Assembly (NCBI GenBank): GCA_012845835.1
Contig: JABAKD010000021.1
Coordinates: 4,774,706-4,838,705 of the forward strand
DNA: 64,000 bases
From: Undaria pinnatifida
Taxonomy: Eukaryota > Sar > Phaeophyceae > Laminariales > Alariaceae
Direction of reading: 5' to 3'
Shown here: piece after piece, positions 18,956-62,879 of the stretch
How positions within the stretch are numbered: the stretch's first letter is position 1
Layout of the letters: each line of letters opens with the position of its first letter
Made by a program: the position numbers and the translations under genes
The notes under the pieces: model-generated
The model's input: the letters and a program-made list of their open reading frames with translations, nothing else
Database searches by the model: none
What the model was told of the DNA's origin: nothing

Positions 18956-18959
18956 CTGT

Positions 18960-39623: not shown

Positions 39624-39892
39624 TGTTAAATTAAAGATGGGGGACACAGAGTGCCCCCTGCAGGTCTGCCAATTGAGCAGGTCCTCGGAGAGTACTCACT
39701 TTCGTTCCTTCGTAGAGATGTAGCTTTATTCGTTTCCACCAGAGCCCGGGATAGCTTCTGAGATCGGAGGCACGTGCCTCCGATCTAATTCCTAACTTCC
39801 CCGAATATAAACCGCCAACCTTATCATACGAAACCCATCCAAATGATCTCAAATTCGGATACCTACAGGTCTTTCGAGGCCGTATCTTAACA
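39624..39892 (-). repeat. 3' LTR of element A
   Basis: 269 bp, TG...CA. It differs from the 5' LTR at aagatg/aaggtg, ataaacc/atatacc and aggtct/aggcct, about 1.1%, which points to a recent insertion. On the minus strand it carries a TATA-like site (complement of 39,805-39,811), the palindrome and AATAAA (complement of 39,725-39,730), in the U3-R order expected for this orientation. Confidence 0.93.
39761..39786. promoter_or_regulatory. 26-bp perfect palindrome in LTR, centred on CACGTG
   Basis: The half-site agatcggaggcac is followed exactly by its reverse complement. The centre CACGTG is the E-box/G-box core bound by bHLH and bZIP factors. It lies about 20 nt downstream of the TATA-like site on the minus strand, near the expected transcription start, so it could be an enhancer or a hairpin at the RNA 5' end. 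It is also perfect in the 5' LTR (52,757-52,782) and degraded in element B (53,151-53,176). Confidence 0.7.
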
Positions 39893-39912
39893 CTAGCCCA
39901 CCCTGATGAGTC
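39893..39912 (-). promoter_or_regulatory. Candidate polypurine tract of element A
   Basis: On the minus strand the sequence next to the 3' LTR reads CAGGGTGGGCTAG, moderately purine-rich. The same sequence adjoins the LTR of element B (53,282-53,301). It would prime plus-strand DNA synthesis. Confidence 0.5.
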
Positions 39913-40370
39913 GCATATGCAGAAATATGGGAGATTCGGGGAACTCCTGTTCTACGAACTAGACCATGAGTCGAAGATACGGCTCCTCAAAACCCACTCC
40001 CACACCTCTAACCGTCTGGCTATGGAGCCAGGAACACGCAAAGAAAAGCAGTAGAGAGAAACGAAGACCCTACGACCCTACAACAAGGCAATAGTCACCC
40101 ATCGAAAACCTGCCGCATGCCACCGGTGTGGCGGGGGGGGCAGGAAAGGCTCTACGGCAAACCAACCACAGAAAAGGTACTATGGCGAGGCGAGCCCTCG
40201 CCGATATGGAGGGGAACACAGGCGCTAACACAAGGGAGAAGTCATGCGAAAAACCTCCCGCGGGCCATCGGCAAGGCGGGGGGTTAAACGAGGAAACGAC
40301 AAATGCCCGGGATGGAAGGTGGCAACAACTACAGCCCCGCTAGGGAGAAAGTGTTTAGACGAAAAAAAAC
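39900..40370 (+). pseudogene. Antisense ORF region between pol and 3' LTR, element A
   Basis: On the plus strand, opposite to pol, a protein-like sequence is shared with element B. It contains ELDHESKIRLLK, a CHRCGGGG Cys-pair motif near 40,120 that resembles the start of a zinc knuckle, and later a Gly/Trp/Arg-rich part. A stop after the 'AMEPGT' segment (about 40,050) and frame differences break it here. Antisense extra ORFs at this position are known from some plant LTR elements (for example Grande). Function unknown. Confidence 0.45.
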
Positions 40371-40739
40371 AAAGTAGAACAAATACAACACATACAAGAT
40401 AAAAAATGACACACAGACCCGTACATAGTCCTATACCACGTTACGCGCGAACAGGGTACCCTGGTCGCCCCCCGGCTCTGGGCTGAGGAGGGCGTCGGCA
40501 GGGCGAAATTGAACAATGACGAAAGGCGACAGCCTGCGCCTCAGGTAGCGGCGTTTTACCCGAACCCTGAGCCGGCACTGAGCAGGGGGTTCGGCAGGAC
40601 AGAAAGAAAAATTAATGGAAAAACCGCCCCAAAACCCGACGAAGACTCTCAGAACACTACAAACAACCCAAAGACAAAGACTCAAAACTCAAAACTCCAA
40701 AAAATGAAGAACTATCGAGGAGCGGTGGCGGCTTGGAAG

Positions 40740-41060
40740 TCAACTAGCCACGGCCGCGCCTCGAGATTCGTCTACGTTACGTTGGATTCCCCGAGGTAAC
40801 GCACTGGCGATGTGAACTTGCAAGAACCAAGAACCTCGTACGGCTCCCGTTGAAGTCGTGTAGCGCGCCGGGAGAAGAGGGAGTTTAATCGGTCCAGGGT
40901 CGTCCAGAAAGCGGACCAGATATACCTTGTCCTCGGTAGTGCTCGTGATAATTTTTCCAAGTCACCATGAACCATCGTCTCCCTGGTACCAAACGTGGGC
41001 TCCCTTAGGGAGTACTGTGTCGTGGTATCGACGGAGCCAATCGGCGCGGGGAACACAGGC
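40740..41060 (-). pseudogene. Tudor-like C-terminal module of element A polyprotein
   Basis: The minus strand encodes YGYACVPR-type sequence followed by a KG-x-VWYKGDDG-x-W segment, a YLVRFLDDPGPIKL segment and a conserved tail (RYTTSTGAVRGSW). The alternating aromatic and acidic pattern resembles Tudor/Agenet-type chromatin-reader barrels, but the assignment is by pattern only. A TGA at 40,962-40,964 replaces the second Trp of a WW pair. Element B has the same stop at 54,396. Confidence 0.5.
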
Positions 41061-41159
41061 GTAGCCCAGCGCTAGGAAACGTTCCCCGTTGTTGCGGGAG
41101 AGCTCAGGCTGTGCCGCCCCGATCCGCATTCGACGGTAGAGGCGGTTGGTTTGGCGGTG

Positions 41160-41400
41160 CTAGTCCGGGGTTCCGGCCCAATAACGCAAGATGTGGGAGC
41201 GGGCGAGGTGAAGGTCTATTTCCCGCTCCCAGGAGGGTTCGGAGAGTCCCACCCAACGCGTCTTGTATAGCACCGCGATGACGCCACCTCGCCCCCGTAC
41301 CGACTGATGGCCAGTGATTTGCTCCACCACCAGCCGTTGGAGGGGAGTCGAAACGTCGTTGAAAAATTGTTGAGTACACACTGTGTCAGCCCCGCCGGTA
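41160..41400 (-). pseudogene. Integrase-linked chromodomain, element A
   Basis: The minus-strand frame contains VEQITGHQSVRGRG, then AVLYKTRWVGLSEPSWE and a C-terminal helix ending HILRYWAG. This follows the chromodomain pattern (V-E-x-I-x-x-H, two strands, W-x-G-x-x-x-x-x-W-E, helix). In Ty3/gypsy chromoviruses this domain follows integrase and directs insertion to specific chromatin. The segment is open here but separated from the integrase core by frame changes. Confidence 0.75.
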
Positions 41401-42937
41401 GGTATTAGGGCATGTCCCCGCTGTCGAGGGGGTTGGCACAGGGTTTGCAGCGCTCGATGGCCACACACCGACGAGCGTCCGAACCAGGCAGGTCGGAAGG
41501 GAGATCCAAATAGAGGAGGTTGCTTCCGAACGGCGAGCCGTCCGGGTCTCGGCGGCGGAGCAGGGACCGACGGCCAGGACCTTGTATGGGCCCGTCCAGT
41601 TAAGCGAGAGTTTGGCCTTGAGTACCTTGGCGTTGGTGTTCGCCTTCACACCCTGGCGGATGGTAGAGACAGAATTGTATACCCATGCCCAACCATCCAC
41701 AGTGAAGTTAGGTGCTGGACGCAGCGCGTCGGCGAGGGCGGAGTTTCTGCGGTTGACACGGGAAACGGTGAGGGCGTGGTGTGCGCGGACAATGTCGTTC
41801 GCGCGCTTTTGCCGGTCGGTGACCAAATCACAATAGGCCAGGTGGTCACGGGTCAGACTCTGGTGTCCCACGACACCTGTGCGGTCGAAAATCGTCAGGG
41901 GGAGCCGTGGGAGTCTGCCCATGTGGACCTCGTTGGGCGCCAAACCCGTCGCCGCGCTGACGTAATTATTGTAAGCATTTTTACGTGGGGCAGATGCAAA
42001 TATCAAACGTCTTGTCGCTCGTTGACGACCATGGCCAGCATTTGGGCCATAGTGTGGTTTACCCACTCAATGCCCACGTTACAGTTGGGATAATAGGAGC
42101 TTGTAGCAAGCTTGTGCACACCCAACATCTGATATACAGCTTGTGAAGGCTTGGAGCAGAACTGCAGTCCGTTGTCTAAGAGTATGGTGCGCGGGAACCC
42201 CCACAAGGGGGTGTATTGGTTCACTAGGATATTGGCTGTACCCTCCTCCTGAATTCAGCGGCAGTGACGGGGAACATGTCGGCCCGACGACTGAAGCGAT
42301 CGGTGAACAGCAGGATGTAGGTGTTGTCTCGTGGTGTGACCGGAAGGGGGCCGAAGTAGTCAACACTGACGGCGATACCTGGACTTTCCGGCAGACGCAT
42401 TGTGATGATGGGCCAGCGGACAGTCAGCGGTGAGGTTTTCCGCGCTTGGCACTTCAAGCAGTGGCGAAGCCACCACCGGGAACACACACTCATGCCAATC
42501 CACCAATAAAACCGCTCCAGCATGCGCAACGTGCGCGTAGTGCCAAAGTGGCAGGAGACCGTCGAGTGGCAAGCTTGCATGATCCAAGGGCGCATGAGCA
42601 GGGGAACGTAGATGCGAACTGGCTCGTCGTTTAGCAAGCAAGCAGCTCGCCCCACAGAGTTCGGTTTGTCAGAGCTTGTTGGCGGGAGTGTCGGGTTACG
42701 GACAAGTAGAACGAAGTCGTCGTCGGTTGAATGTAGTCGACCCTTACCCGCCAGCTCCTGGATGTCTGAGAGGGAGGGACGCTTGGCCGAGGGGTAGCAT
42801 GCCAAGAAGTCGGGTGGCAGGGCCGACGGCCGGCCGATAGAGATGTAACGTATCGTGGCGTGGCACGTCGGCTCTGCGTGTTGTTCGCGCTTCCAATCGG
42901 CATGTGAATAACGCGCGACGAAATCCGCGAACCGCAA
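41385..42937 (-). pseudogene. Integrase (HHCC + DDE core + GPY/F-like region), element A
   Basis: Integrase inserts element cDNA into chromosomes. On the minus strand, zinc-binding HHCC residues appear in QACHSTVSCHFGTTRTLRML and HCLKCQARKT. Core Asp 1 is in VDYFGPLP (about 42,360), Asp 2 in LLDNGLQF (42,174-42,176), and the Glu in GIEWVNHTM (about 42,070). The post-core region holds LNWTGPYKVLAVGP, a GPY/F-type motif. Three lesions break the frame: a -1 shift near 42,245, a TGA in place of Trp at 42,003, and a -1 shift near 41,975. Element B has all three at matching positions. Confidence 0.85.
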
Positions 42938-42939
42938 CT

Positions 42940-44480
42940 CAGCAGCGTCGCCGAGGGCGTCCGACCTTGTATATGCAGTCGGCGTGTCACCGGGAGAAGG
43001 CGTGAGCCGTAAGAGAGGAGTTCCCGTATAGGCTCTGCGTGGTCGCGGTCGGACGGTAGTGGCACCGTGCGGACCGGCGAGTCGGCAAGAGCAGGGGTCG
43101 CGGCGGTCGACGGGGTCGGCCGCGGCCGTGGGACTCGCGGCGGGGTCGTACCTCGTCTAGAAGATGGCCGAGGGGCCCCGCCGAGCCCCAATCCATAATC
43201 TGCAGCGGGGTGCATTACCTGTTGTTGTCGCTGTTAGTCAGCGCGTCGTCGACGACGAAGGGGCTGGAGTGCCAAGCATGGCGGAGACGGACACAGTCGA
43301 ACCGGTGGTCGCGGCGGGGGCCGTCTCCTGTAAAGAACTCCGGGACAGATAAGTCGGCTGTGCGATGAGCGTCGCTGCAGCCAGGGCTTCTGCGGAGCCC
43401 GTGCCGCCCTCGATGGGTATGGCAAAAACCGAAGCGAAAACAGTGTCGGCGGCAGGTGAAATCGACCCGCGGCCGGTACACCCTTCGGTTGTGGCGACGG
43501 AGGCAGAAACACGAGCGACGAATCTCCCCGGGGAAACAGAAAGGCCGTCAATCCTTACACGTGGCTCGTGTGTGCGAAAATCGTGAAACGCGGTAGAGGT
43601 GAAAGGGAGCCCACCCAAGGCAGCATGTTCAGTGCGGGGCACGAGCTCACCCAAGACAGTGCTTTCGGCGAGGGGTTCGAGTCCACCCAAAGCAGTGCTT
43701 TCGGTGTGGGGCACGAGCCCACCCCAGACAGTGCTTTTGGCGAGGGGCGCGAGTCCACCCGAACCGACTCCTGGGATCGGCAAAGAGTGAGCGCGCAGCC
43801 CGCGGTCCGTAGGAGGTAGATACCGCTATCTCCAACGGGGTTGGGGCTTGTCAACCCCACGAGGTTGAATTTTTCCAAGCCACTGCGGTCGTACTCCGTA
43901 GCGGGCTCTGGAAAACGGGCCGGAAAAATCGGCGATGCCCTTGGCGCTGCCTTTGCGGTACTCGAGTGTGCAATCGAACGCGGTGACGAACTCAAGCTAC
44001 CGCTGGACTCGTGCATTGAGGGTCCCCACTTCGTCAATGCTCTCCTATGTCTTGTGGCCGGAGGATATGCGGAACTTTGTTCTCCTCAGTATCCTCGGAG
44101 GCGTTTGGGAACCCAAGCAATGCTGCCGGTCCCCAAATCTATAGGAGTCCAGTGCCTCTCCGAGTCGAGCGTTGCTCGACTGATATACGCGATTTTCATA
44201 GTGAACAAAACGTCATCCAGCGTCACAGTACCCTTGACGAAACAGGGGCCGTGTTCTGACAGTGCGCGGTCTGAGGCGCCGCGAGAAGCTATCACCAAAA
44301 CCTCCGGGCTTTGATCGGCGGGTGTACCCGAAAAATAGGCCGAAGGAGGGCCTTGGTCAGCGCCGGCCGCGATCCCCAAGCGCGACTGCTGAGCAGGCGA
44401 AAATTTCGTGGATCCCAGCATTCCCGGTGGGCCTGCGGAATCGACGAGGGGAGGCCGGGTGTGGCGATCCGTCCTCGCTG
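42940..44480 (-). other. Pol linker region of element A: Pro/Ser-rich, with 39-bp tandem repeats
   Basis: Between integrase and NADAR no enzyme motif is visible. The minus-strand frame at 43,600-43,783 shows four imperfect 13-residue repeats of the type GGLxPxxxSTxLG, encoded by 39-bp units; element B has the same at 57,064-57,240. The region is conserved between copies but shifted in frame. An aspartic protease would be expected somewhere here; I do not see a D-T/S-G motif I trust. Confidence 0.5.
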
Positions 44481-45020
44481 TCGCGAACTGCTTCGCGAAC
44501 GGCAGAGAGTGCCTCACCGAGCAAATATTTTTCCTCTCCACTTGTGTGGATCCTTGGCGTGGGGGTCGTCCGCCCGGAGACCTATACCCCACACTGTGTC
44601 TAGAGGACTGGCCTCTGCCAGAAATTTGTTGCCAGTGCTCAAAAGGTGTTTTTTCATGGCTTGGTTCTGCGTAAATTTGGCGTAGGTGCCAGGTGACACG
44701 GCGTTTTGCTTCTCCCTGTCCCCAACAGCGGAATCAAAGTTGCGCACGCCTCGACCGATGCGTTTGCGTGTGCTTGGACGAGGCGACGACATAATGAGCC
44801 CCACTGCTCGATGGTCTTGCAAAAACTTGGTCTTTTCGGCCATCATGTCCAGCTCCGCGCAAGAATATGGCACGTCGTCCACGGCAAACGACGAAGGGCA
44901 CCACGGTGAAAAATATAATTGGGACTGCCAGAATAACACCACTTTGTCTGTGGAGTATTCGAGAGAAGGGCCAAAAGCCGTGTTGGAATTTGGGGCTGCA
45001 ATGTCCCCGTCCGGGAACAC
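44480..45020 (-). pseudogene. NADAR (YbiA/DUF1768-like) domain of element A
   Basis: The minus-strand frame carries the NADAR signature in order: an Asp-Asp-Val-Pro-Tyr segment before CAELDMMAEKTKF (family pattern E-x-Y-M-M-A-x-K), RKRIGRGVRNFD, AKFTQN, LLSTGNKFLAEASPLDTVWG (family pattern L-L-x-T-G-x-x-x-L-V-E-A-S-P-x-D-x-x-W-G), and W-R-G-K followed, after a frameshift near 44,535, by LLGEALSAVREA. NADAR proteins include YbiA, an N-glycosidase acting on riboflavin-pathway intermediates, and enzymes reported to remove ADP-ribose from guanosine. One residue at the E-x-Y position is Leu-Asp here, and the usual Trp after NFD is missing. The shift makes this copy inactive as read. Confidence 0.85.
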
Positions 45021-45640
45021 CAGGCCTCGGAAGCACGACGCGAATCCGAAGCCGTGGTATCTCGCCTCGGGTCTTTCATCGTTCGTTGGCGGAAAAGCGC
45101 GAGAATCCGCTCTAACTGCGCCCGAAAAATGGCAAAAACCGACGGTGCCAACCCGTCGGTAGCCTCGTTGGACATTTGTGGGTCTGCAATGTCCCCTTCT
45201 GGAAACACCAGTCCTCGGCTATTTGGGCCTATAATGTCCCCTTGCGGGAGCACCAGGCCTCGGGAGCAAGATGCGAGTCCGAACCCGGGGTTTCTTGCCT
45301 CGGGTCCTCCTCACTCGCTGGCGGAAACTCGTAAGAAGCCGCCCGCATTGCACCCGAAAAAGAGTCCAACACCGACGGTGTCAACCCGTCGGTAGCCTCG
45401 TTGGGCATTTGGGTCTGCAATGTCCCGGTCCGGGAACACCAGTCCTCGGCTCTTTGGGCCTGTTGTGTCCCCCTCAGAAACACCAGGCCTCGGGAGCACG
45501 ACGCGAGTCCGAACCTACGGTTTCTCGCCTCGTGGCCTCTTCGCTTCTTGGCGTATAATTGCAAGAAAACTGCTCTAACTGCGCCCGAAGGGGCAGGGGC
45601 TCTGAGCTGTTTCTGCTTGACGAGAGGCGCGATTCTTCCG
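45010..45640 (-). repeat. 231-bp (77-codon) tandem repeats upstream of NADAR, element A
   Basis: 'tcctcggct' followed by 'tttgggcct' recurs at 45,212 and 45,443, exactly 231 bp apart, and a related unit begins near 45,013. Each unit encodes an 'EATDGLxPSV' segment and an Ala/Arg-rich stretch. Element B has the same 231-bp period (58,693 and 58,924). The length keeps the reading frame, suggesting selection on the protein at some time. Confidence 0.85.
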
Positions 45641-46960
45641 TAAATTTAAAGGAATAGCGTCCAGCTGATCAGCCTGGAGGCCGTGGAGGCACCACTGGCC
45701 CGTCGCGCAGTGTCGGATCTTCTTCCTGTGCCACTGGGGCAGACGTAGCCTGAAACACGTGGGTTAGCGTGTTAAAAGACGAAGCAGGGTCCGTAAACCC
45801 TGTGGGCGTCTTCTGGAGCGGGGCTCGGGCAAGGCAATAATATTTTTACCCGAGGAGGCTCTCTTCCGTTATGCCTCTTGGAGAAGGGAGAAGAGGTAGC
45901 TAATCTTGTCGCCTCCTCCTTGATGGAAAAAAGGACAGAGCGCCCGCTCTTATCGCGAGCAAACACCGGATTGAGCCTCGCAAAAGATCTCGGTGTTTTA
46001 GTGTTGGCCTTCCCACACCTCAAATCGACCGCCACCTCGTGGTCAGAAAAAGTGTTTCGAGGGTCGACCGTCCCACACCTCAAACCGACCGCCACCGCCT
46101 AGTCAGGGAGAGGGGGGGATGAACACATACGCGTAAAAAGGCGACGCGCCGTCGCTGCAGCTATATTGTTGCGCGGCGCGTACCTAGAGGGGGAGCGCGC
46201 AAAGCGCAGGCTCCCGTGCCATGGATGATGGGGGCGGCGTTTGGAGCGCGTACCCCCATTGCTGAGATGGCGCGGCTGAGGGAAACGGCGCTGAAAGCGC
46301 GGTTCCCGTTGCCGAACTCAGACCATGACCGAGGGGAACGTCGCTGAAAGCGCGCATTCTCGCCGTCGAAAAAGAAGGAAAGAAAAGAAAAACAATTACC
46401 TGGCTGAAGGAAACCACGCATGAAGCGCTAGTTTCCGCCGCCGGTACTACGCCGTGAGAATCGTCCGCAGACGGCGTAGGAGCCCGTGGGCTCTTGACAG
46501 AGGCAATCTGTGCTGCGTTACTGGACAGGCTAGCAACGGAACACGAGCATCTTCTGAAAACGAAATAGGTACCCCCCAACAGTGTTGTCGACGGTGCCGT
46601 ACCGCTGTCGAGCTGTCGATTGCCGTTACGGAATGTGCCAGGTTGGCGCCCAAATTTATTTTCGCCCGGGTCGTGGGCGGCTCCAAAGCGCATTCGAGGA
46701 GCAGGAGCGGGGGCAGAAGAGGCGGGCGAGCGCAGGATACCACCATGGTGATCCGACGTGTATGTGGTATCGTTGTGACAGTTTACCTGGCCCTGATATC
46801 GAAAGATGGCAACGATTTTTCTTGTGCTTGTTCGGGCGAGAAGACTTGTCGTCTCGGCGGTAGCAGACCATGCGTGTGTGTCAACGTCGGTGAGCGTCAT
46901 CGTCGCCAAGTTGGTCAAGTTCAGGGTTCAAGCAGCCACTCGCACTAATGAATAGATGCC
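45640..46960 (-). other. Gag-NADAR spacer of element A
   Basis: Ser/Thr/Pro/Ala-rich coding-like sequence with several frame changes, conserved in element B (59,140-60,430). No RT, RNase H or protease motif is visible. A poly-purine stretch (gaaggaaagaaaagaaaaac) at 46,376-46,396 is specific to A. Confidence 0.5.
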
Positions 46961-46961
46961 T

Positions 46962-47003
46962 ACAATGCTTGATGGAATGGTTGTCTTCGGGGCGGTTGAG
47001 GCA
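46962..47003 (-). pseudogene. Gag zinc knuckle, element A (second Cys lost)
   Basis: The minus strand reads CLNRPEDNHSIKHC: the C-X2-C-X4-H-X4-C motif with Arg in place of the second Cys. In element B the motif is intact (CLNCHKVNHSFKHC). The knuckle would bind element RNA in Gag, so this copy should be impaired. Confidence 0.85.
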
Positions 47004-47099
47004 AAGCCCCCGGTTTTCTCGGAGGGCATCAGCGCGAGGTGAAAGGAGGCCGCTCCAAAAGGGAGGGTCGTCTGTCTTAAACGAGGCCTTAACGGCGAA

Positions 47100-48970
47100 G
47101 CCTTCTGCATAATGATGCTCTTCTAGTGGCCAGCAGTTCGATGTGCGGTCAAGCCAAGGGTCAGATGAATCATCGATGGGCATGACAGTTGAATGATGGC
47201 TCGATCCCGTCTGCCACGAAAGCGACTGGGACGGCACTCGGCCCTGGCCGCGCCCATGATCGGCGGGCCGGGGCCCCGGCAGGGCGCATGACCACGCTTC
47301 CGTCGAAGAAACATGGAGAGAAAAAAAAAATGTTTCGCCGTTGACGGCAGGTGTCTTATTAGTCACTAAAATCCCGCCACATAGTATCCAACGAGGCGTG
47401 TGGCCGCGGGTCTGTTGCCTTCGAACCAGGGTACAACGCAGGCAGGAGAGCCGGAAATTGCTCATTCGCCGCCACCCGAACCACCTCCAACACCACATCC
47501 GTTCCCGGAGACAAAACACGCTCACTCTCCGTAGCGGTCGGCATAAGTACGCGAAACTCCACTGAAATCAGAAAAAGGCATGCCGTTACACATTCCAAAA
47601 GTATGCAACTTAGTGTAGCCCTCCTCCGTGTCAATCCCGTCGAAGTGCGTGATCAGCAGACGCAACAGGAGGGTGAAAGCCTCAGGCAGATGCTCCTCCT
47701 GCCATGGCTCTTGACACTTTTTGCCTGCTACCACGATCACCTCGCTGTGGTCCGTGCTCGAGGACGAAGACGAGCGGGAGGAGGTTGACGAGCCGTCCCA
47801 CGCTGAACGTCCTCTCGCGTCATTCCTCTGCCAGAGCTGCGGCCAACTGCCCCGGTTGTTGGAACGAAGTTGCCCCCTCGGCGGCGCCCTCAGGCACACC
47901 AGCACCCGATGCGCTGTCACCCCCGCGGCGGTGGTAGTGGTCGCCACTTCCACCATTTTTGCCGCCACCCCCACGGTTGCGGTCCCCGCGGTCGCGACTG
48001 TCGCGACATTTTCCCCGGTTTCGTTCTGCCAACTCTTCCTCCGGGGTTCGGCCAAAAGACAGGGTCGGGGTCCTCGTCGTGGGCTATCAGCAGGGCCTTG
48101 ACGAGGGCAAGGGTCGGGGCGGCTCTCGTCTGTCTAGCATAGGGCGTAAAATCCACGCCAGCCGAGGCCGCTTCCACTGAGGACGTCCGCTTGCCGCGAC
48201 GCCGGCCTGGCGCAGGCCGTTTCCACCACCGCGGGTCGCCAACGCTGAGGAGAAGTCTACCCTCGGTGCAGACGCCATGCACGCGACGATGCTCTTGAAG
48301 AAGGCGTCGTTCCCGGGTCGTGGTCGCTGGGATGCGACACCCTGCGGGCGCGAAGAAGGCAAGGGGGTCGCGGTAGCTCCCGCCGCAGCCGACGCAACTG
48401 ATTGGGCGAGGGCTTGTTGCGCTCTCTTCGCTACCAGGGACGCCTCCCGTGCAGCGGTCTTCGCCTGCTTGATATCTTCGTCAAACCGACGTCGGCGTCC
48501 TATCGTCTGGTTGGCGTCGTCGAGCGCCCGCTGGGCCCGCGCCGCCGCGTATGCCAAGTCCAAGGGGGCGGCATGGCCGCCCCGGTCCCGGGAGCTCTGG
48601 GGGTGGCGCTCTGTCGAGCGCGGAGAGCCCAGGTGGCGGCGGTGGTGCCCTGTCAAGCGCGGGGGGGGGCAGCTGGTGGCGCTCCCCCGGGGCTGGCGAG
48701 AGCTGGCGTCGAGACGCCCCCGAGTCCGGTGGGGGTTGGTCTGTCTTCTTCTCAGCGCGAACCGGTGAATCGACCCTCTTGGTTGGTGGGAACGGGTGGA
48801 GGTATGGTGCTCCGTCTTCTGTCTCGTCACCGGAACCCGCCTACGGTGGTTCCCCCCGTCTCTAGTCGCGGGATCTCGAGCGAGCTCTCCCTGTCTCGTG
48901 GGCATCCAGGTTGGGGTTCGTGGAAGACCTCAGCCTGCCCCGAGTAGCCCGCTTCCTCACTGGTAGACAT
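47100..48970 (-). pseudogene. gag of element A: RGG-rich region and capsid-like domain
   Basis: The likely start is the ATG at 48,970 (MSTSEEAG...), the first codon after the leader. It is conserved in element B at 62,623. In order: an acidic N-terminus, a Pro/Arg-rich region, an Ala/Lys-rich coiled-coil-like helix near 48,420-48,500 (FDEDIKQAKTAAREASLVAK), an RGG/RG-rich region (about 47,820-48,030; RDSRDRGDRNRGGGG), and a helical capsid-like segment (about 47,530-47,700; EAFTLLLRLLITHFDGIDTE). The first frame stops at 48,827-48,829 after about 47 codons and the rest continues in other frames. Element B stops at the same place. Confidence 0.7.
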
Positions 48971-49379
48971 GTTGCTTGTTGTCTGTATGGAGGGTAGCCG
49001 AAGGAGGGGGTGTGGGGGAAGTTGGCGGGATCGAAACGGCGCGTAAAGAAGCTATGGACGCAGATTTATTGTTGTGATGTCCCTGCTGTAAGTAGCGATA
49101 TATCTGTGTTTCAGCAAACAGCAAGACATGGGCCTCGACTCCGTCCAGCATCAGTCATGGTAGCAGCCACGCCAACTAGCCGTATAAAAGGAGTACAGCA
49201 GTAAGAAGGGTACCATCCACCAAAACCGCAACATAAGAGCAGCGCCCAGTCTGACCGTAGGGTATACAGGTAACGCCCGCACGAACCGCAGTAAAAGCAG
49301 CCAAAACTGGGCAGCACTGACCCTAACCGCAGTGCAGGGGGTGCAACACAGTAACGGTACGTCTGCAGCCATCGCACTT

Positions 49380-50520
49380 AAACAGGCACCATTCAACCCA
49401 GGCGGGGGGGATAGCACAAGAAAGCGTCGCCCAAACCGCCCACGCTCATCGTACCAAAACAGGCAGCATTTAACCTACGTGCAGTGTAGGAGTCATCACA
49501 ATAAAGGTTCGCCCAACACGCCGACGCTCATCGCACCAAAACAGGCAGCGTTTAACCTAGGTGTAGCGTAGGGGATAGCACAGTGAAGGGTCGCCCAACA
49601 CCCCGACACTCATCGCACCAAAACAGGCAGCATTTAACCTACGTGTAGTGTAGGGGTAGAAGCACAGTGAAGGGTCGCCCAACACGCTGACACTCATCGC
49701 ACCCAAACAGGCAGCATTTAACCTAGGTGTAGTGTAGGGGTGGATGCACAGTGAAGGGTCGCCCAACACACCGACACTCATCGCACCAAAACAGGCAGCA
49801 TTTAACCTAGGTGTAGTGTAGGGGTGGAAGCACAGTGAAGGGTCGCCCAACACGCCGACCTTCATCGAACCAAAACAGGCAGCATTTAACCTAGGTGTAG
49901 CGTAGGGGTGGAAGCACAGTGAACGATCACCCAACACGCCGACACTCATCGCACCGAAACAGGCAGCTTTTAACCTAGGTGTAGTGTAGGGGGTAGCTCA
50001 GTGAAGGGTCGCCCAACACGCTGACACTCATCGCACCAAAACAGGCAGCATTTAACCTAGGTGTAGTATAGGAGGGTAGCACAGTGAACGGTCACCCAAC
50101 ACGCTGACACTCATCGCACCAAAACAGGCAGCATTTATCCTAGGTGTAGTGTAGGGGTGGAAGCACAGTGAAGGATCACCCAACACGCCGACACTCATCG
50201 CACTAAAACAGGCAGCATTTAACCTAGGTGTAGTGTAGGGGTGGAAGCACAGTGAAGGGTCGCCAAACACGCCGACACTCATCGCATCAAAACAGGCAGC
50301 ATTTCACCTAGGTGTAGTGTAGGGGGGTAGCACAGTGAAAGGTCACCCAACACGCCGACACTCATCGCATCAAAACAGGCAGCATTTAACCTAGGTGTAG
50401 TGTAGGGGTGGGATCACAGTGAAAGGTCACCCAACACGCTGACACTCATCGCACCAAAACAGGCAGCTTTTAACCTAGGTGTAGTGTAGGGGGTAGCTCA
50501 GTGAAGGGTCGCCCAACAAC
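49380..50520 (-). repeat. 84-bp minisatellite array in leader of element A, about 13 units
   Basis: The phrase 'caaaacaggcagcattta' followed by 'acctaggtgtagtgtagggg' recurs about every 84 bp (for example 49,617, 49,701, 49,785, 49,869, 49,953). Because 84 is a multiple of three, minus-strand frames show a 28-residue repeat (MSVGVLGDPSLCFHPYTTPR...), broken where units are 82-85 bp. Element B has about five recognisable units at 63,040-63,400. Confidence 0.92.
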
Positions 50521-52599
50521 AAAACGGGCAGCATCCGCCCCAACGGTAGTGTAGGGGGGGGGTAGCACAGTGAAGGATCGCGCCGCCAACCGTATATAAA
50601 CGGGCAGCATCCGCCCCCACAGCAGTGTAGGGGGGGGTAGAACTGTAAAGGTTTGCGCACCAACCGCATAAAAAACGGGCAGTATAACCCCCTGACTGAG
50701 GTAGTTTCCCCCGACCGCACTAAAGGGGGACGGTCGCGCCTACAGTAGTGCTGATTGCTGCAGTATCATTGCTGTGTTAACAGGTAACGGCAATTTCAAC
50801 CGCACCAAGATGGGTAGCGTGTAGTACCAACACCCGCGCTGTAGAAAATTGTGTACGCCCACAGCCAAATAGAAAGGCTGTTTGCCCCCAAAGGTACCGC
50901 ATCAATTAGGCTGATCTCCACTGCACTATTAAAAGCTGTGAAGCGCAGTATCTCCGCGAACTGTGTAGTAAGCGCTCTGTAACGGGCAGTAGCTGTCCGA
51001 ACATGTGCAGAGAAGAAGAAGAAAAAAAATTCCAGCGTAGACCCTAGCAATATCGTGAAGGGCAGCACATGTACCGGCAGGAAGACGGCCTAACGCCCGG
51101 ACAGCTGAAAAAAAATCCGTACCCACTCCCACCGATAACGGGACAGTTACGTTGACAGCAGTGCAGAGTGCCGCACTGTCACAGCTGTGCATTCACAGAA
51201 AGTGGTATTATAGTCCCCGCGTACCCATGAATGGTGGAATATAGGGCATCGCACACACCAACAGCCTTGCCCAAAAAAGCCAGCACAGAGTTTCAGCGTT
51301 CACTAGGTTCAAGTTCTAGTCACGGGGGGGCCAGAACGAAAAAAAAAACTCTCGAATCGAACTTGCAAGGAGCACTCGCACAGCAGCGGAGGGTGTCAGA
51401 GCTGCGGTGCTGTAACTGTGGACGCTGGGGCAGTGAAGGATCGAGCTATGTGGTGGATGGGCAGGAGCAAAGTAGGCGGCTTGGCTGCTGTACAGTGACT
51501 TCTACAGCAGAGAATCCGGCGGTATGTGGCAGGCATTGACAGCGAGCCCATTGTGCTGCACTGTAGTTGGTACCTCTGCAAAAATGATGGTGGTTGAAGC
51601 TACGCGACGCACAGCAGTAGTGGAACGCTGTTGATCGAGAAAGATCGGAGAGGGGTCCGAGGTACGTCAAATTAGTAGCAGTACTAATTTCGGCAGAAAG
51701 GGAGCTGCTGTTTGTTCGACGCACAAGACGGATCGACGTATGTACTGAAAAACTATACGAAAACGCGTGTACTGGAAAATTCGCCAAACGAAAAAGCCCA
51801 AACATTCCACGAGCACCGCCTGTTCCTTCCCAGGTAGGATCACAAGGAAGGAGTCCCGACATGAGCTCCTAGAGCACGGTGCCCGTAGTCCAAGGGGGTC
51901 CCGCGAAGGGCGGTCTGGCTCGACAGCAAAGGTGTATGCTGGTCGATGGGCTCTCTCAGCAAGCGAAGTCTCCGTCGAAGGTCATTCGAAGGGTTGATTC
52001 CAGTATGCTTGTCCGTGGCGTGTCGTGTATATATATGCCTCCGAGCCCCAAAGCGCAAAAAAAAAAGTACAAGTCGATGGCCGATCTTGGGGCTTGTGCT
52101 GGCAACTCGCGGAGATGTGCTGTGCAACATGCTGGCAGAGCGCGGAGCGAACAAGTCTGATGGGTGGGGCTCGGGCAGTTCCACTGCGGAGTGGTCTATG
52201 ACCAGCTGGCGGTGAACTGATGCGACCAAAGGCGGGGATGAGGAGTGTGCTCCGAAGAGCAGTGTTGTCCGCCCGTACTCGGAGGGTGTCCTCTGTGTGG
52301 TGCGTGCCCAGCAACCAACAGGAGGGACCAAGATTCGAGACGAGAAGTGTGCTCCGCAGAGCAGTGTCGTCCGCACGTACTTGGAAGGTGTCGTCCGTGT
52401 GGTACGTGCGCGGCGACCAACAGGAGGGGCCACTGCCATCTCACTGCTGTTGTGGTCGCCGTTGTAGGAGGAAGGGCGCTCCCTCCATTGAGAAGCCACC
52501 CGAGAAGGAACAGGGGTTGTGGGCTCGATGGAAAGCAAAAGCAAAATCGCTACGAAAAAAAAATTGTAGAGATTTGAGGAACAATGCCACAATAGCATA

Positions 52600-52617
52600 T
52601 CAAGCTCGTCGACGCCA
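52600..52617 (-). promoter_or_regulatory. Candidate primer-binding site of element A
   Basis: On the minus strand TGGCGTCGACGAGCTTGA begins 2 nt after the 5' LTR. It would pair with the 3' end (CCA) of a primer tRNA. The first eight bases (TGGCGTCG) are the same as in TRIM-like copy 2 at 38,043. I could not name the tRNA. Confidence 0.65.
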
Positions 52618-52619
52618 CA

Positions 52620-52888
52620 TGTTAAATTAAAGGTGGGGGACACAGAGTGCCCCCTGCAGGTCTGCCAATTGAGCAGGTCCTCGGAGAGTACTCACTTTCG
52701 TTCCTTCGTAGAGATGTAGCTTTATTCGTTTCCACCAGAGCCCGGGATAGCTTCTGAGATCGGAGGCACGTGCCTCCGATCTAATTCCTAACTTCCCCGA
52801 ATATATACCGCCAACCTTATCATACGAAACCCATCCAAATGATCTCAAATTCGGATACCTACAGGCCTTTCGAGGCCGTATCTTAACA
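52620..52888 (-). repeat. 5' LTR of element A
   Basis: 269 bp, same termini as the 3' LTR. TATA-like (complement of about 52,798-52,806), palindrome (52,757-52,782) and AATAAA (complement of 52,721-52,726) are in the same relative places, giving the promoter and poly(A) signals expected for minus-strand transcription. Confidence 0.93.
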
Positions 52889-53012: not shown

Positions 53013-53281
53013 TGTAAGATTATTGGGCGGGGACACAGAGTGCCCCCTGCAGGTCTGCCAATTGAGCAGGTCCTCGGAGAGTACTCACTTTCTTTGCCTT
53101 CGTAGAGACGTAGCTTTATTCGATTCCGCCAAAGCCCCGGATTGCTGCTGAGATCAGAGGCTCGTGCCTCCGATCTGTTTCCTAACTTTCCCGAATATAA
53201 ACGCCAACCTTATCATACGAAACCCATCCAAATGATCTCGAATTCGGATAATTATAGGCCTTCCGAGGCAGTATCTCATCA
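53013..53281 (-). repeat. 3' LTR of element B
   Basis: 269 bp, TG...CA (starts tgtaagatt, ends ctcatca), the same length as A's LTRs but diverged. The palindrome is imperfect (53,151-53,176, agatcagaggctc against gtgcctccgatct). The complement of AATAAA is retained (ctttattcg). Confidence 0.85.
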
Positions 53282-53314
53282 CTAGCCCACCCTGATGAGT
53301 CGCATACGCAAAAA

Positions 53315-53719
53315 TTGGAAGATTCGGGGAAAATCCGGTTCCACGAACTGGACCATGAGTCGAAGATGCGGCTACTTAAAGCCCACTCCCACCCCTCTAA
53401 CGGTCTGGCTATGGAGCCAGGAACACTCGATAAAAACCAGACGGAAGAACCGCAGACCCTACATCAAGGAAAAAATCACCCATCAAAAACCTGCCGCGTG
53501 CCGCCGGTGTGGCGGAGGGGGGCAGAAACAGCTCTAGAACCTGCCGCATACCGCCGGTATGGAGGGGGGGGGCAGGAAAGGCTATACGGCAAACCAACCA
53601 CAAAAAAGGTACTGTGGAGAGGCGAGCCCTCGTCGATGTGGAGGAAAACACAGGCGCTAACAGAAGGGAGAAGTCATGCGAAAAAACTCCCGCGGGCCAT
53701 CGGCATGGCGGGGGGTTAG
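53315..53719 (+). CDS. Antisense ORF between pol and 3' LTR, element B
   Basis: A 134-codon plus-strand frame, opposite to pol. N-terminal MEDSGKIRFHELDHESKMRLL matches element A; the remainder is basic and Gly/Trp-rich. In a neighbouring frame the same DNA reads ACRRCGGGG and RYCGEASPRRCGG, which look like remnants of CCHC knuckles, so the true ancestral frame is uncertain. It could be an extra antisense gene of the family or a captured gag fragment of another element. I do not know a function. Confidence 0.35.
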   Translation: MEDSGKIRFHELDHESKMRLLKAHSHPSNGLAMEPGTLDKNQTEEPQTLHQGKNHPSKTCRVPPVWRRGAETALEPAAYRRYGGGGQERLYGKPTTKKVLWRGEPSSMWRKTQALTEGRSHAKKLPRAIGMAGG

Positions 53720-54179
53720 ACGAGCAAACGACAAATATCTGGGATGGAAGGTGGCAACACCTACAGCCCCGCGAGGGGGGAAAGTGTTTAGTCGAAAAAA
53801 CAAAGTAGAACAAATACCACACACAAAAAATAACAGGTGACACACAGACCCGTACATAGCCCTGTACCACGTTACGCGCCAACAGGGTACCCTGGTGGCC
53901 CCCTGGCTCTGGGCTGAGGAGGGCGTCGGCAGGGCGAAATTGAACAATGACGAAAAAGCGACAGCCCTACGCCTCAGATAGCGGCGTTTTACCGGAACAC
54001 TGGCCCGGCACTGAGCAGGGGGTTCGGCAGGACAGAAAGAAAAAAGAATGGAAAGAACCGCCCCAAAACCCGACGAAGACTCTCAGGACACTACGCACAA
54101 CCCAAAGACGAAGATTCAAACCTCATCACCCCCAAAAATGAAGAACTATCGAGAAGCGGTGGCGGCTTGAACGTCAACT

Positions 54180-54500
54180 GGCCACGGCCGCGCCTCGAGA
54201 TTCGTCCGCGTTACGTTGGGTCCCCCGAGGTAACGCACTGGCGATGTGAACTTGCAGGCACCAAGAGCCTCGTACGGCTCCCGTCGAAGTCGTGTAGCGC
54301 GCCGGGGAAAGATGAAGTTTAATCGGTCCCGGGTCGTCCAGAAAGCGGACCAGGTATACCTTGTCTTCGATAGTTCCCGCGCTGATTTTTCCAAGTCACC
54401 ATAACCGGTCGTCTCCCTTGTACCAAGAGTGGACTCCCTTAGAAAGTATTCTGCCGTGGTAGCGACGGAGCCAGTCGGTGCGGGGAACACAGGCGTAGCC
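54180..54500 (-). pseudogene. Tudor-like C-terminal module, element B
   Basis: Same pattern as in A (WYKGDDRLW, then after a TGA at 54,396-54,398 a YLVRFLDDPGPIKL-type stretch and RYTTSTGAVRGSW). The TGA at the Trp-Trp pair is shared with A. Confidence 0.5.
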
Positions 54501-54599
54501 CGGCGCTAGGAAACGTTCCCCGTTGTTGCGGAAGATCTCGCGATGTGCCCCCCGATCCGCATTTGGCCGTAGAGGCGGTGGATTTGGAGGTGCTGGTCC

Positions 54600-54850
54600 G
54601 GGCCTCCGGCCCAATAACGCAAGATGTGGGAGCAGGAGAGGTGGAGGTCCACTTCCCACTCTCAGGAAGATTCGGAGAGTCCCACCCAATGCGTCTTGTA
54701 TAGCACCGCGATGACGCCACCTCGCCCCCGTACCGACTGACGAACAGTGATCTGCTCCACCTCCCGCCGTTGGAGGGGGGTCGAAACGTCGTCTTGAGTG
54801 ACGTGGTACGGTGGGGATTTCTTGGAACAATTGTTGAGCACGCACTGCGC
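54600..54850 (-). pseudogene. Integrase-linked chromodomain, element B
   Basis: VEQITVRQSVRGRG, then AVLYKTHWVGLSESS and a stop (TGA, 54,662-54,664) where A has Trp-Glu. The helix ending HILRYWAG follows in the same frame. The domain is otherwise as in A. Confidence 0.72.
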
Positions 54851-56440
54851 CAGCCCCGCCGGTAGGTATTTAGGCATGTCCCCGCTGTCGTGGGGGTCAA
54901 CACAGGGTTTGCAGCGCTCAATGGCCACGCGCCGACGAGCGTCCGAACCGGGTAGATCGGAATGGAGATCCAAATAGAGGAGGTTGCTCCCGAGCGGCGA
55001 ACCGTCCGGGATCTCGGCGGCGGAGCAGAGACCGACGGCCAGGATCTTGTACCGGCCCGTCCAGTTAAGCGCGAGTTTGTCCTCGAGTCCTTGGCGTCGG
55101 TGTTCGCCTTCACACCCTGGCGGATGGTAGAGGCAGAATTGTACACCCATGCCCAACCACCTACAGTGAAGTTAGGTGTTGGACGCAGCGCGTCGGCGAG
55201 GGCGGAGTTTCTGCGGATAAAGCCGGAAACGGTGAGGGCGTGGTGTTCGCAGACAATGTCGTTCGCGCGCTTTTCCCAGTCGGTGGCCAAGTCGTAAAAG
55301 ACCAGGTGGTGACGGGCCAGACTCTGGTGTCCCACGACACCAGTGCGGTCGAAAATCGTCAGGGGGAGCCATGGGAGTCTGCCCGAGTGGACCTCGTGGG
55401 GCGCCAGATCCGTCGCCACGCTGACGTAATTGTTGTAAGCATTTCTACGTGGGGCAGATGCAAATATCAATCGTCTTGTCGCTCGTTGACGACCATAGCC
55501 AGCATTTGGGCCATAGTGTGGTTTACCCGCTCAATGCCCACGTTACAGTTGGGATGATAGGAGCTTGTAGCAAGCTTGTGCACACCCAACATCTGATATA
55601 CAGCTTGTGAAGGCTTGGAGCAGACCTGCAGTCCGTTGTCCAAGAGTATGGTGCGCGGGAACCCCCACAAGGGGGTGTATTGGTTTACTAGGATATTGGC
55701 TGTACCCTCCTCTCGAATTCAGCGGCAGTGACGGGGAACATGTCGGCCCGACGACTGAAGCGATCGGTGAACAGCAGGATGTAGGTGTTGTCTCGTCGTG
55801 TGACCGGAAGGGAGCCGAAGTAGTCAAAACTGACGGCGACACCTGGACCTTCAGGTAGAGGCATTGTGATGATAGGCCAGCGGAAAGTCAGCCGTGAGGT
55901 TTTCCGCGCTTGGCACCTCAAGCAGTGGCGGGGCCACCACCGGGTGTACACATTCACGCCAATCCACAGATAAAACCGCTCCAGCATGCGCAACGTGCGC
56001 GTGGTACCAAGGTGACAAGAGACCGTCGAGTGACAAGCTTGCATGATCCAAGGGCGCATAAGCAAGGGAACGTAGATGCGAACTGGCTCGTCGTTTAGCA
56101 AGCAAGCAGCATTCCCCACAGAGTTGGGTTTGTCAGAGCTTGTTGGCGGCAGTGTCGGGTTACGGACGAGTAGGACGATGTCGTCTTTGGTTATCTGTAG
56201 TCGACCTTCACCCGCCATCTCCTTGATGTCTGAGAGGGATGGGCTCTTGTGCGAGGGGTAGCACGCCAACAAGTCGGGCGGCAGGACCGATGGCAGGCCG
56301 ATAGAGACGTAACGCACCATGGCGTGGTACGTCGGCTCAGTGTGCTACTCTCGCTTCCAATCGGCATGCGAACAACGCGCGACGGAATCAGCAAACCGCA
56401 ACTCAGCAGCGTCGCCGAGGGCGTCCGACCTTGTATGTGC
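54850..56440 (-). pseudogene. Integrase, element B
   Basis: HHCC residues lie in QACHSTVSCHLGTTRTLRML and HCLRCQARKT, Asp 1 in FDYFGSLP, Asp 2 in LLDNGLQV, Glu in GIERVNHTM, and a later GRYKILAVG stretch replaces the GPY motif. The lesions match A: a -1 shift near 55,710, TGA at 55,467-55,469, and a -1 shift near 55,440. An additional stop lies near 56,345. Confidence 0.85.
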
Positions 56441-57800
56441 AGTCGGCGTGTCACCAAGAGAAGGCGTGAGCCGTGAGAGAGGAGTTCCCATATAGGCTCT
56501 GCGTGGTCGCGGTCGGACGGTAGTGGCACCGTGCGGACCGGCGAGTCGGCAAGAATAGGCGTTGCGACGGCGGGCGGAGCCGGCCGCGGCCGTGGGACTC
56601 GCGGCGGGGTCGTACCTCGTCTAGAAGATGGCCGAGGGGCCCCGCCGGGCCCGAATCCATAATCCACAGCGGGGGTGCATTACCCGTTTCTGTCGCTGTT
56701 CATCAGCGCGTCGTCGACGACGGAGGGGCTGGAGTGCTAAGCATGGCGGAGACGGACACAGTCGAACCGGTGGTCGCGGCGGGGGCCGTCTCCTGTGTAG
56801 AATTCCGGGATAGGTAAGTCGGCTGTGCGATGGGCGTCGCTGCAGCCAGGGCTTCTGCGGAGCCCGTGCCGCCCTCGATGGGTATGGCAAAAACCGAAGC
56901 GAAAACAGTGTCAGCGGCAGGCGAAATTCACCCGCGGCCGATACACCCTTCGGTAGTGGCGATCGAGGCAGAAACACGAGCGACGAATCTCTCCAGGGAA
57001 GCAGAAACGCCGTCAATCCTCATACGTGGCTCGTGTGTGCAAAAATCGTGAAATGCGGTAGAGGTGAAAGGGAGCCCACCCAAGGGAGCATGTTCAGTGT
57101 GGGGCACGAGCCCACCCAAGACAGTGCTTTCGGTGAGGGGTTCGAGTCCATCCAACGCAGTTCTTTCGGTGTGGAGCACGAGCCCACCCAAGACAGTGCT
57201 TTCGGCGAGGGGCGTCAGTTCACCCAAACCGACCCCTGGGATCGGCGAGGAGGGAGCGTGCAGCCCGCGGGTCCGTAAGAGGTAGATACTGCTATCTACA
57301 ACGGTGTTGGGGCTTGTCGACCCCACGGGGTTGAAGTTTGTCAAGCCACTGCGGTCGTACTCCGGAGCAGGCTTTGGAAAACGGGCCGGAAAAATTGGTG
57401 ATGCCGTTGGCGCTGCTTTTGCGGTACTCGAGTGTGCAATCGGCGGTGACGAACTCAAGCTACCACTTGACTCGTGCATTGAGGGTCCCCACTTTGCCAA
57501 TGCTCTCAAGTGTCTTGTGGCCGAAGAATATGCGGAACGTCGTTCCCCACAGTACCCTCGGAGGCATTTGGAATCCCAAACAATGCTGCCAGTCCCCAAA
57601 TCTAGAGGAGTCTAGTGCCTCTCTGAATCGAGCGTTGCCCGACTGATATAATCGATTTTCATAGTGAGCGAAACGTCGTCCAGCATCACAGTACCCTCAT
57701 CGAAACACAGGCAAAAACCATGGGCCGTGTTCTGACAGCGCAAGGTCAGGGCCGGCGCCAGAAGCTATCTCCAAACCTCCACGGCTTTTAATTGGCCAAG
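56440..57800 (-). other. Pol linker region of element B with 39-bp repeats
   Basis: Pro/Ser/Arg-rich and conserved with A. The 13-residue GGLxPxxxSTxLG repeats are at 57,064-57,240. No protease motif is identified. Confidence 0.5.
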
Positions 57801-57879
57801 GCGCCCGAGAAATAGGTCAGAAACGACGAAGGGGAAGCTTTGCGAGCGCTGGCCGCTGTTAACGGCCCAGCCGCGGCGC

Positions 57880-58440
57880 GGACGAGACTTTTTGGTTCTT
57901 GCAGTCGCAGTGCAGGTGCGGAACCGACTAAGGGAGGCCGGGTGCGCCGATCCGGTCTCATTGTCGCGAATAGCTTCGCGAACGGCAGAAAGTGCCTCAC
58001 CGAGCAAGGTTTTCCTCTCCCCTGGCATGGTTTGTTGGCTCTGGGACCATCCACCCGGAGATCAATGCCCCACACTGAGTCCAGAGGGCTGGATTTATCC
58101 AGAAGCTTGTTGTCAGAGCTCAAACGGTGATTTTTTTATGTCTGGATTCTGCGTGGATTTGTCGTAGGTGCCAGATAACAGGGCGTTTTGCTTCTCCCTG
58201 TCCCCAACACCGGATTCAAAGTTGCGCACGCGTCGACCGATGCGCTTGCGTGTGCTTGGACTAAGCGACGACATGATGAGCCCCATTGCTCGATGGTCTT
58301 GGAAAGGCCTGGTCTTTCCGGCCGTCATGTACTGCTCCGCACAAGAATATGGCACGTCGTCCACGGCAAACGACGAAGGGGACCACGGTGGAAAATAGGA
58401 TGGTGCAGCCAGAATAACAACACTTTGTCTGTGGAATATT
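57880..58440 (-). pseudogene. NADAR (YbiA/DUF1768-like) domain of element B
   Basis: Read across three minus-strand frames: DDVPYSCAEQYMTAGK (E-Q-Y-M, closer to the family pattern than in A), RKRIGRRVRNFE, LLDKSSPLDSVWGIDL, and TLLGEALSAVREAIRDN at the C-terminus. Frame changes lie near 58,115 and near the W-x-G-K segment (about 58,015). Position in the element is the same as in A. Together the copies show that the domain belongs to the family and was not a chance insertion into one copy. Confidence 0.8.
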
Positions 58441-58479
58441 CAGGAGAAGGGTCAAAAGCCGTGTTGGAATTTGGGCCTG

Positions 58480-59110
58480 CAATGTCCCCGTCCGGGAACA
58501 CCAGGCCTCGGGAGCACGACGCGAATCCGAACCCGTGGTTTCTCGCCTCGGGTTTTCCTTTGCTCGTTGGCGGAAAAGCGCGAAAATCCGCTCTAACTGG
58601 GCCCAAGAAATGGCAAAAACCGACGGTGCCAACCCGTCGGTAGCCTCGTAGGACATTTGTTGGTCCGCAATGTCCCCTCCTGGGAACACCAGTCCTCGGC
58701 TCTTTGGACCTGTAGTGTCCCCTTGCGGAAGCACCAGGCTCCGGGAGCAAGATGTGAGTCCGAACCCGGAGTGTCTCGATTCGGGTCCTCCTCACTCGCT
58801 GGCGGAAAATCGTGAGAAGCGGCCCTCGCTGTACCCGAAAAAGAATCCAACACCGACGGTGCCAACCCGTCGGTAGCTGCGCTGGACAGTTGGGTCTGCA
58901 ATGTCCCCGTCTGGGAACACCAGTCCTCGGCTCTTTGGGCCTGTAGTGTCCCCCTCAGGAACACCAGGCCTCGGGAGCACGACGCGAGTCCGAACCCGCG
59001 GTTTCCTGCGTCGTGGCCTCTTCGCTCTTTGTCTTATAATCGCAAGAAAACTGCTCTAGCTGCGACCGAAGGGGCAGAGGCTCTGAGCTGTTTCTGCTTG
59101 ACGAGAGGCA
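58480..59110 (-). repeat. 231-bp tandem repeats, element B
   Basis: 'tcctcggctctttgg.cct' at 58,693 and 58,924, 231 bp apart, with a third related unit near 58,500. Same position and period as in A. Confidence 0.85.
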
Positions 59111-59139
59111 TGATTCTTCCGTACCTTTACGGGAATAGC

Positions 59140-60430: not shown

Positions 60431-60434
60431 GCCT

Positions 60435-60476
60435 ACAATGCTTGAAGGAATGGTTGACTTTGTGGCAGTTGAGGCA
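60435..60476 (-). pseudogene. Gag zinc knuckle, element B (intact motif)
   Basis: CLNCHKVNHSFKHC on the minus strand, a perfect C-X2-C-X4-H-X4-C knuckle. The surrounding gag is frame-broken, so it is labelled as part of a pseudogene. Confidence 0.85.
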
Positions 60477-60559
60477 AAGCCCCCGGTTTTCTTGGAGGGC
60501 ATCAGCGCGATGTGAAATGAGGCCGATCCAAAGGGGAGGGTTGTCTGTGTCTTAACCGA

Positions 60560-62623: not shown

Positions 62624-62879
62624 GTTGTTGTTTGTTGTCTGTAGGGAGGGCAGCGGAAGGAGGGGGTGTGGGGCAAGGTGTCGGGATGGGAACGACGCGT
62701 AAAGAAGATATGGAGGCAGATTTATTGTTGTGGTGTCCCTGTTGCAAGTGGCGGTGTATCTGTATTTCAGCAAACAGCAAGATATGGGCTTCGACTCTGT
62801 CCAGTAACAGTGATGGTGGCAGCCACGCCAACTAGCCGTATAAAAGGAAGACAGTGGTAAGAAGGGTACCATCTACCAA

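Follow-up and report, generated by a model that had tools for sequence, protein, structure and literature searches.

A 64,000-nucleotide stretch of the Undaria pinnatifida genome (assembly GCA_012845835.1, contig JABAKD010000021.1, positions 4,774,706 to 4,838,705 of the forward strand; hereafter the window) harbours two related long terminal repeat (LTR) retrotransposons, elements A and B, the first of which carries a NADAR domain and the second a decayed one. The best explanation we can offer, tentatively and as a whole at somewhat under an even chance, is that A and B are deleted copies of a Gypsy-like family in which a NADAR lies at the N-terminus of the full-length Pol, and that this NADAR would be borne in particles and would strip ADP-ribose from guanine in the element's nucleic acid.

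Element A, a Ty3/Gypsy-like LTR element with an internal deletion, occupies 39624..52888 on the minus strand, as delimited by its terminal repeats and flanks. The repeats (273 bp, 98.9% identical) were trimmed by eye to TG...CA, giving a 5' LTR at 52620..52888 and a 3' LTR at 39624..39892, both found by terminal-repeat comparison, with three differences in 269 bases; CTCA, likewise read by eye, flanks the element on both sides. Inside these LTRs, the Pfam profile PF08719 matched the minus-strand open reading frame at 44514-45020 with 115.4 bits (E 4.1e-33; profile positions 2-148 of 163; cut-off 35.1 bits). This significant match to the minus-strand translation bears out an earlier note, made from the letters of the window alone, which had placed a NADAR domain within an LTR retrotransposon at this position and named a Pfam search among its checks. 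The domain spans 44453..44948 (minus strand) and its frame is broken near 44524-44529, ahead of the last helix, such that the LLGEAL...VRE end is encoded in another frame (44524-44453, by tblastn). The NADAR of A is 80% identical to that of a full-length copy by tblastn, and 92% identical past the break. Elsewhere on the minus strand, A retains an integrase N-terminal region with an H2C2 zinc-binding domain (42224..42937; PF17921, E 5.3e-13), a decayed Gag-homologous region (46594..49100, right limit approximate, from blastn and the gag frames of full-length copy L084) and an 84-bp minisatellite ahead of gag (49370..50682, by repeat comparison). By blastn, L084 1-3999 matches window positions 50481-46594 at 75%. 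The minisatellite is also seen in B (63015-63403) and in the full-length copy read (L084 1-1187).

The family is not confined to the window. Searching the 511-Mb genome (68 contigs) with PF08719, we found at least 150 NADAR places, all above the cut-off, from 1454 first-look candidates, and the NADARs of full-length copies scored 172-177 bits against the cut-off of 35.1. The open frames that hold a NADAR among the places listed include at least nine of 2473 amino acids, which we term lineage I, and at least five of 2371 amino acids, lineage II; the NADARs of the two lineages are ~48% identical. In all 40 loci ranked 31-70 by NADAR score (L031-L070), a protease/reverse transcriptase (RT) region adjoins the domain. 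When the genome was instead searched with the protease region, blind to the NADAR, 119 scored candidates were obtained, and a NADAR match adjoined 44 of the 47 best places (>700 bits; matched by hand to the NADAR lists). These 44 comprise 41 retrieved NADARs and three partial matches, and the remaining three places had none among the matches listed. One copy with a 2473-amino-acid frame has LTRs identical over 267/267 bases and TATA on both sides, a target duplication that is less sure given its TA-rich flanks; TG..CA LTRs with a target duplication were found in A and in this one full-length-frame copy. For two further copies no LTR pair was found, the window LTR matching the 3' stretch and not the 5' stretch retrieved. 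The named relatives of the polyprotein in the database search were Ectocarpus proteins.

The anatomy of the full-length element was pieced together from separate stretches of two copies, and runs in the order Gag, in-frame UGA, linker, NADAR, protease motif, RT, RNase H and integrase. The earlier note had put the domain between Gag and integrase, which is right but loose, as in full-length copies it follows the gag/pol UGA and precedes the protease motif. The 5' end consists of the 5' LTR, the 84-bp minisatellite, a Gly/Arg-rich frame of 506 amino acids and then a frame of 498 amino acids that carries a CCHC knuckle (CLNCHEDTHSLRNC). In the one copy read, gag is apparently split over these two overlapping frames before the UGA (L084 1378-2895 and 2481-3974). 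Pol continues after the UGA in the same frame as the 498-amino-acid frame and opens with a linker of ~400 amino acids ahead of the NADAR. Downstream of the domain lie the protease motif (DTGS), RVT_1, RNase H, H2C2 and rve, and the Pfam matches in L085 thus give the protease, RT, RNase H, integrase order, with H2C2 and rve, of Ty3/Gypsy elements. Pfam recognised neither a gag nor a protease in the full-length pieces read, so both assignments rest on motifs. The C-terminus of Pol (L085 427-1500, minus strand) gave a chromodomain match below threshold (13.5 bits; cut-off 25.1), and past this match a Tudor-like stretch was noted by eye.

The lineage I gag/pol border was located with a tolerant pattern in 42 of the 70 loci looked at, and in 39 of these 42 it reads UGA followed by CAG. 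Seven of the 21 lineage II loci were looked at: six have a UGA after AAC, and in five of these six the frame above the UGA stays open as far as the stretch extends; the seventh has a TAG closer to the NADAR. As the UGA is kept at the gag/pol border, read-through is a reasonable guess for how Gag-Pol is made, and on the same guess the NADAR would be the first Pfam-recognised domain of Gag-Pol.

We then considered whether the domain looks like an enzyme. The predicted model of the NADAR of full-length copy L002 (predicted local distance difference test score 94.1, predicted template-modelling score 0.87) has the YbiA fold. Only two PDB entries matched it at E 0.001 or better: the first was 8bau, the ADP-ribose-bound NADAR of Phytophthora nicotianae (E 2.9e-12, template-modelling score 0.84), and the second Escherichia coli YbiA (2b3w). 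Using the P. nicotianae residues that excerpts of PMC11543638 name for ADP-ribose binding or hydrolysis, we mapped eight pocket residues that are identical to 8bau (E43, K50, K75, R79, W89, E125, D130 and W133) and three that differ (Y84F, D86A and R93K). Across 83 loci of the same genome, picked by NADAR score and hence favouring intact domains, the eight are retained, in that order, in 78, 80, 79, 83, 81, 80, 81 and 81. The wider sample was of 157 pol-type proteins among the matches listed in two database searches. A NADAR match was found in 124 of the 157, and in 52 of the 54 listed proteins with at least 300 amino acids before the protease motif (the exceptions being P0054 and P0066); in 98 listed proteins it lies 109-152 amino acids ahead of that motif. 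Of the 72 listed pol proteins that span every one of the eight pocket positions, 56 retain the full set. The glutamate of the YbiA subfamily (E125, in the last strand, rather than Asp or His) is present in 80/83 loci of the genome and in 116/121 pol rows. From sequence and model, then, the NADAR looks functional in full-length copies, and with its pocket residues present it may be a guanine-ADP-ribose hydrolase, an activity that is predicted.

Selection on the domain was gauged from the ratio of nonsynonymous to synonymous differences per site (pN/pS). Between the NADARs of lineages I and II we counted 76.2 synonymous differences over 100.5 sites and 131.8 nonsynonymous differences over 352.5 sites (Fisher p 6e-12). 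The N-terminal linker of lineage I finds no match in lineage II loci, whereas the NADAR does. Within lineage I, we used 40 of the 41 protease-picked NADARs (L072 being short), of which 39 were in register (L045 was dropped), and 29-38 of those copies for the flanking blocks; this comparison is limited by score-based sampling and shared ancestry. Over all pairs, pN/pS was 0.41 for the NADAR, 0.85 for the linker, 0.61 for the spacer, 0.73 for the protease part and 0.61 for the start of RT, and between nearest neighbours the same blocks gave 0.58, 0.90, 0.53, 0.85 and 0.93. We read these values as constraint that would act in the lineages giving rise to new copies, with inserted copies then drifting. 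The selection test that the earlier note had proposed came out constrained between the lineages and near neutral between A and B (see below). Neither of the results it had named beforehand as refuting its proposal was obtained, since the profile match is strong and the domain both occurs beyond the two loci and is constrained.

Element B (53029..64000, minus strand) belongs to the subfamily of A, to which it is 88% identical over 6.6 kb, and shares its deletion. Five long colinear matches between the two are 85-91% identical. The 3' LTR of B is at 53029-53283 (minus strand); B runs to the window end, and no 5' LTR of it was located before that end. Pieces of L002 and L085 were aligned to the window by blastn and combined with the Pfam places in L085, which showed that both elements lack ~2.1 kb present in full-length copies, comprising the protease motif, RVT_1 and part of RNase H. 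The junction, located by blastn of the full-length pieces, lies at 44193..44199 in A and at the same point, 57656-57662, in B (both minus strand). With this segment missing, neither is an autonomous element with its own protease and RT, and together they presumably form a deleted, non-autonomous subfamily.

The NADAR has also decayed in this subfamily. In B it is a remnant at 57936..58421 (minus strand) with frame changes and stops, 53% identical over 162 amino acids by tblastn; the statement in the earlier note that both elements encode a NADAR is thus half right, A encoding one up to the frame break before its last helix and B keeping a recognisable remnant. The conserved pocket residue Trp89 (P. 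nicotianae numbering) is Gly in both. The same Gly occurs in five database proteins of A's clade (P0092, P0097, P0110, P0123 and P0136), while in two further rows of that clade (P0094 and P0161) the stretches looked at do not cover the position. Against the same full-length copy, pN/pS of the NADAR is 0.39 for A and 0.45 for B. Between A and B it is 0.89, and equal rates are not rejected (p 0.65); the integrase region gives 0.50. The NADAR is likely a passenger in these two copies. The near-identical LTRs of A show a recent move, made despite its damaged NADAR, and the simplest reading of this movement is that proteins were supplied in trans.

To place the origin of the domain, we compared it with stand-alone NADARs. 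Among the matches listed, the nearest relatives of the lineage I NADAR are myxobacterial (Nannocystis, 56-61% identity), and five single-gene algal NADARs, from Pylaiella, Ectocarpus (two), Scytosiphon and one further source, are about equally near (56-61%). Four of these five (P0121, P0138, P0168 and P0176, from Pylaiella, Ectocarpus and Scytosiphon) have a Cys-rich N-terminal stretch that lacks a Pfam match, and they group with the element NADARs. Matches in a viral structure library (at most 41% identity) and in viral contigs (at most 53%) both fall below the bacterial ones. In a tree of 85 rows, one clade (100/90) unites 25 element NADARs with the five algal genes and has myxobacterial and planctomycete rows next to it, and the four lineage II rows are placed away from these 25. 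A single clade of all element NADARs is nonetheless not rejected, either alone (p 0.107), with the algal genes (p 0.214) or in a smaller tree (p 0.363). A single capture by the element would be the simplest history on these trees, and there may have been two captures, one each for lineages I and II, or exchange between a host gene and the element. The single-gene algal NADARs, which the best tree (unstarred) places within the element NADARs, are a possible host source or product of the element domain. No separate host NADAR gene was seen among the at least 150 places in the Undaria genome that matched the Scytosiphon protein, which are largely the same places as in the PF08719 search. On the RT tree, one 16-row half (100/100) contains both the window family and two NADAR proteins of Ectocarpus, P0046 and P0056.

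The protective role that the earlier note had suggested would suit the pocket residues and stays a proposal. On the mechanism we favour, UGA read-through would yield a minor Gag-Pol product that is packed into particles, and the NADAR carried there would hydrolyse ADP-ribose off guanine in the RNA or cDNA of the element. This would remove a modification that would otherwise halt reverse transcription or act as a label on the nucleic acid. Deleted elements, A among them, would rely on proteins from full-length copies and, being served in trans, would need no working NADAR of their own. Excerpts of PMC11543638 and PMC11125620 describe guanine de-ADP-ribosylation on DNA by bacterial, oomycete and phage NADARs. 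Several points weigh against this proposal. The recent movement of A with a damaged NADAR implies that the domain is not needed in cis, and among young copies the difference between NADAR and linker in the nearest-neighbour comparison is not significant (p 0.35). No partner gene of the kind a DarT1 antitoxin has was found, as the DarT profile PF14487 had no match in the genome at E 0.001, in a search that itself rang in one of 14 control genomes. PARP (PF00644) gave one exon-size match, in a search of unproven sensitivity that rang in none of the 14 controls, and no host guanine transferase can therefore be named. For NADARs in general, riboflavin intermediates are a further substrate and soluble ADP-ribose derivatives a possible one (excerpts of PMC9503650), and for the element NADAR the activity, expression, packaging and read-through are all predicted. 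On the RT tree, furthermore, the label "NADAR" is unclustered (10 changes, with 237 of 500 shuffles as low), a pattern that is uninformative rather than hostile because most unlabelled rows are too short at the N-terminus.

The main rival, which we consider unlikely though worth keeping in view, is an active NADAR with a small-molecule substrate such as soluble ADP-ribose, NAD-derived signals or by-products of host RNA processing. The same pocket residues would serve it, and the available parts of PMC9503650 propose such a role for phage NADARs; the same parts favour macromolecular targets for the NADARs of RNA-virus polyproteins, and fusion into a presumably particle-bound polyprotein would point to a local rather than a diffusible substrate. 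It is less probable still that the NADAR now serves Gag-Pol as a structural or RNA-binding module for which catalysis is immaterial. The domain does adjoin the protease within the polyprotein, one position (LLGE) that is often conserved elsewhere carries R in both aligned rows of lineage II, and 16 of the 72 pol rows differ at one or more of the eight pocket positions; yet all eight are kept in the other 56 despite 40-50% identity between lineages. That the NADAR is a host riboflavin-pathway N-glycosidase carried as cargo strikes us as very improbable. Action on riboflavin intermediates is reported in the available text of PMC11543638 and PMC9503650, but this role would leave the fusion to Gag-Pol without obvious reason, and the single-gene NADARs of other brown algae could fill it. 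We give slightly less credence again to a neutral passenger, captured once and hitch-hiking since. The near-neutral ratio between A and B and the almost neutral differences among young copies would fit it; retention of the domain in informative pol proteins at near-fixed spacing, together with the constraint between lineages beside a linker that does not match between them, led us to reject it for the full-length lineages.

Reversible ADP-ribosylation of guanine is established in bacteria, and many eukaryotes keep NADARs. That the pocket is kept over deep divergence and partly lost in a deleted subfamily is a hint that retrotransposition itself benefits from the enzyme, and the element NADAR is an experimentally handy protein for asking what its substrate is. 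If that substrate is element nucleic acid, it would point to an unrecognised host defence. A bolder and more doubtful extension of guanine de-ADP-ribosylation is that the domain is a retroelement-borne repair enzyme revealing an ADP-ribosylation defence against retroelements in brown algae, with the algal single genes being either the host's own or domesticated.

Outside elements A and B, the window contains inverted repeats at 18054-19911 (arms of 271 and 326 nucleotides, 94-96% complementary), beside frames that by eye resemble the reverse transcriptase of long interspersed nuclear elements (LINEs); neither of the two LINE-like frames (18-21 kb) had a match in Pfam. A frame of 332 amino acids at 377-1372 (minus strand) has a retroviral-type protease match below the cut-off (E 0.008) and is perhaps part of another LTR element. 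Repeats of 129-300 nucleotides recur between 12061 and 38753, with five to six direct copies and with inverted ones around 38.3-38.75 kb. Positions 36772-37271 are a run of 500 N, which would be a gap in the assembly or a withheld stretch.

The combination of a NADAR with a Gypsy-like element is not new here. The available text of PMC12477816 (2025) reports a NADAR at the Pol N-terminus of the Ectocarpus Gypsy lineage Gypsy-12_Ec32, with blastp matches outside Ectocarpus that are almost all bacterial; beyond it, titles and abstract openings in the literature yielded no other report of this kind of NADAR-carrying retroelement. As excerpted, Gypsy-12_Ec32 has a C-terminal chromodomain, whereas the Undaria family has only the sub-threshold match, and the genomes differ in size (200 Mb for Ectocarpus, 511 Mb here). 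Our comparison was made through Ectocarpus proteins such as P0046, and on the RT tree through P0046 and P0056; by that route the window family may be kin to Gypsy-12_Ec32 itself. The P. nicotianae NADAR (8bau; excerpts of PMC11543638) shares the fold and the eight pocket residues of the element domain, but it is a stand-alone protein of 28% identity in which Y84, D86 and R93 take the place of the element's F, A and K. The NADARs of nidoviruses and other RNA viruses are likewise found within a polyprotein with a polymerase (available parts of PMC9503650), yet those are viruses with RNA-dependent RNA polymerases and their identity in fold matches is ~20%. The Nannocystis NADARs are far closer to lineage I in sequence but are stand-alone bacterial genes. 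The Tx1 LINE NADARs of Crassostrea gigas, set beside ours by their description in excerpts of PMC12477816, are also retrotransposon-borne, but in ORF1 of a non-LTR element. To this known combination the present analysis adds predicted catalytic competence through residue-level mapping of the pocket, an expression layout with a gag/pol UGA, constraint between lineages, decay in a deleted subfamily that lacks W89, and a tie to the single-gene NADARs of algae.
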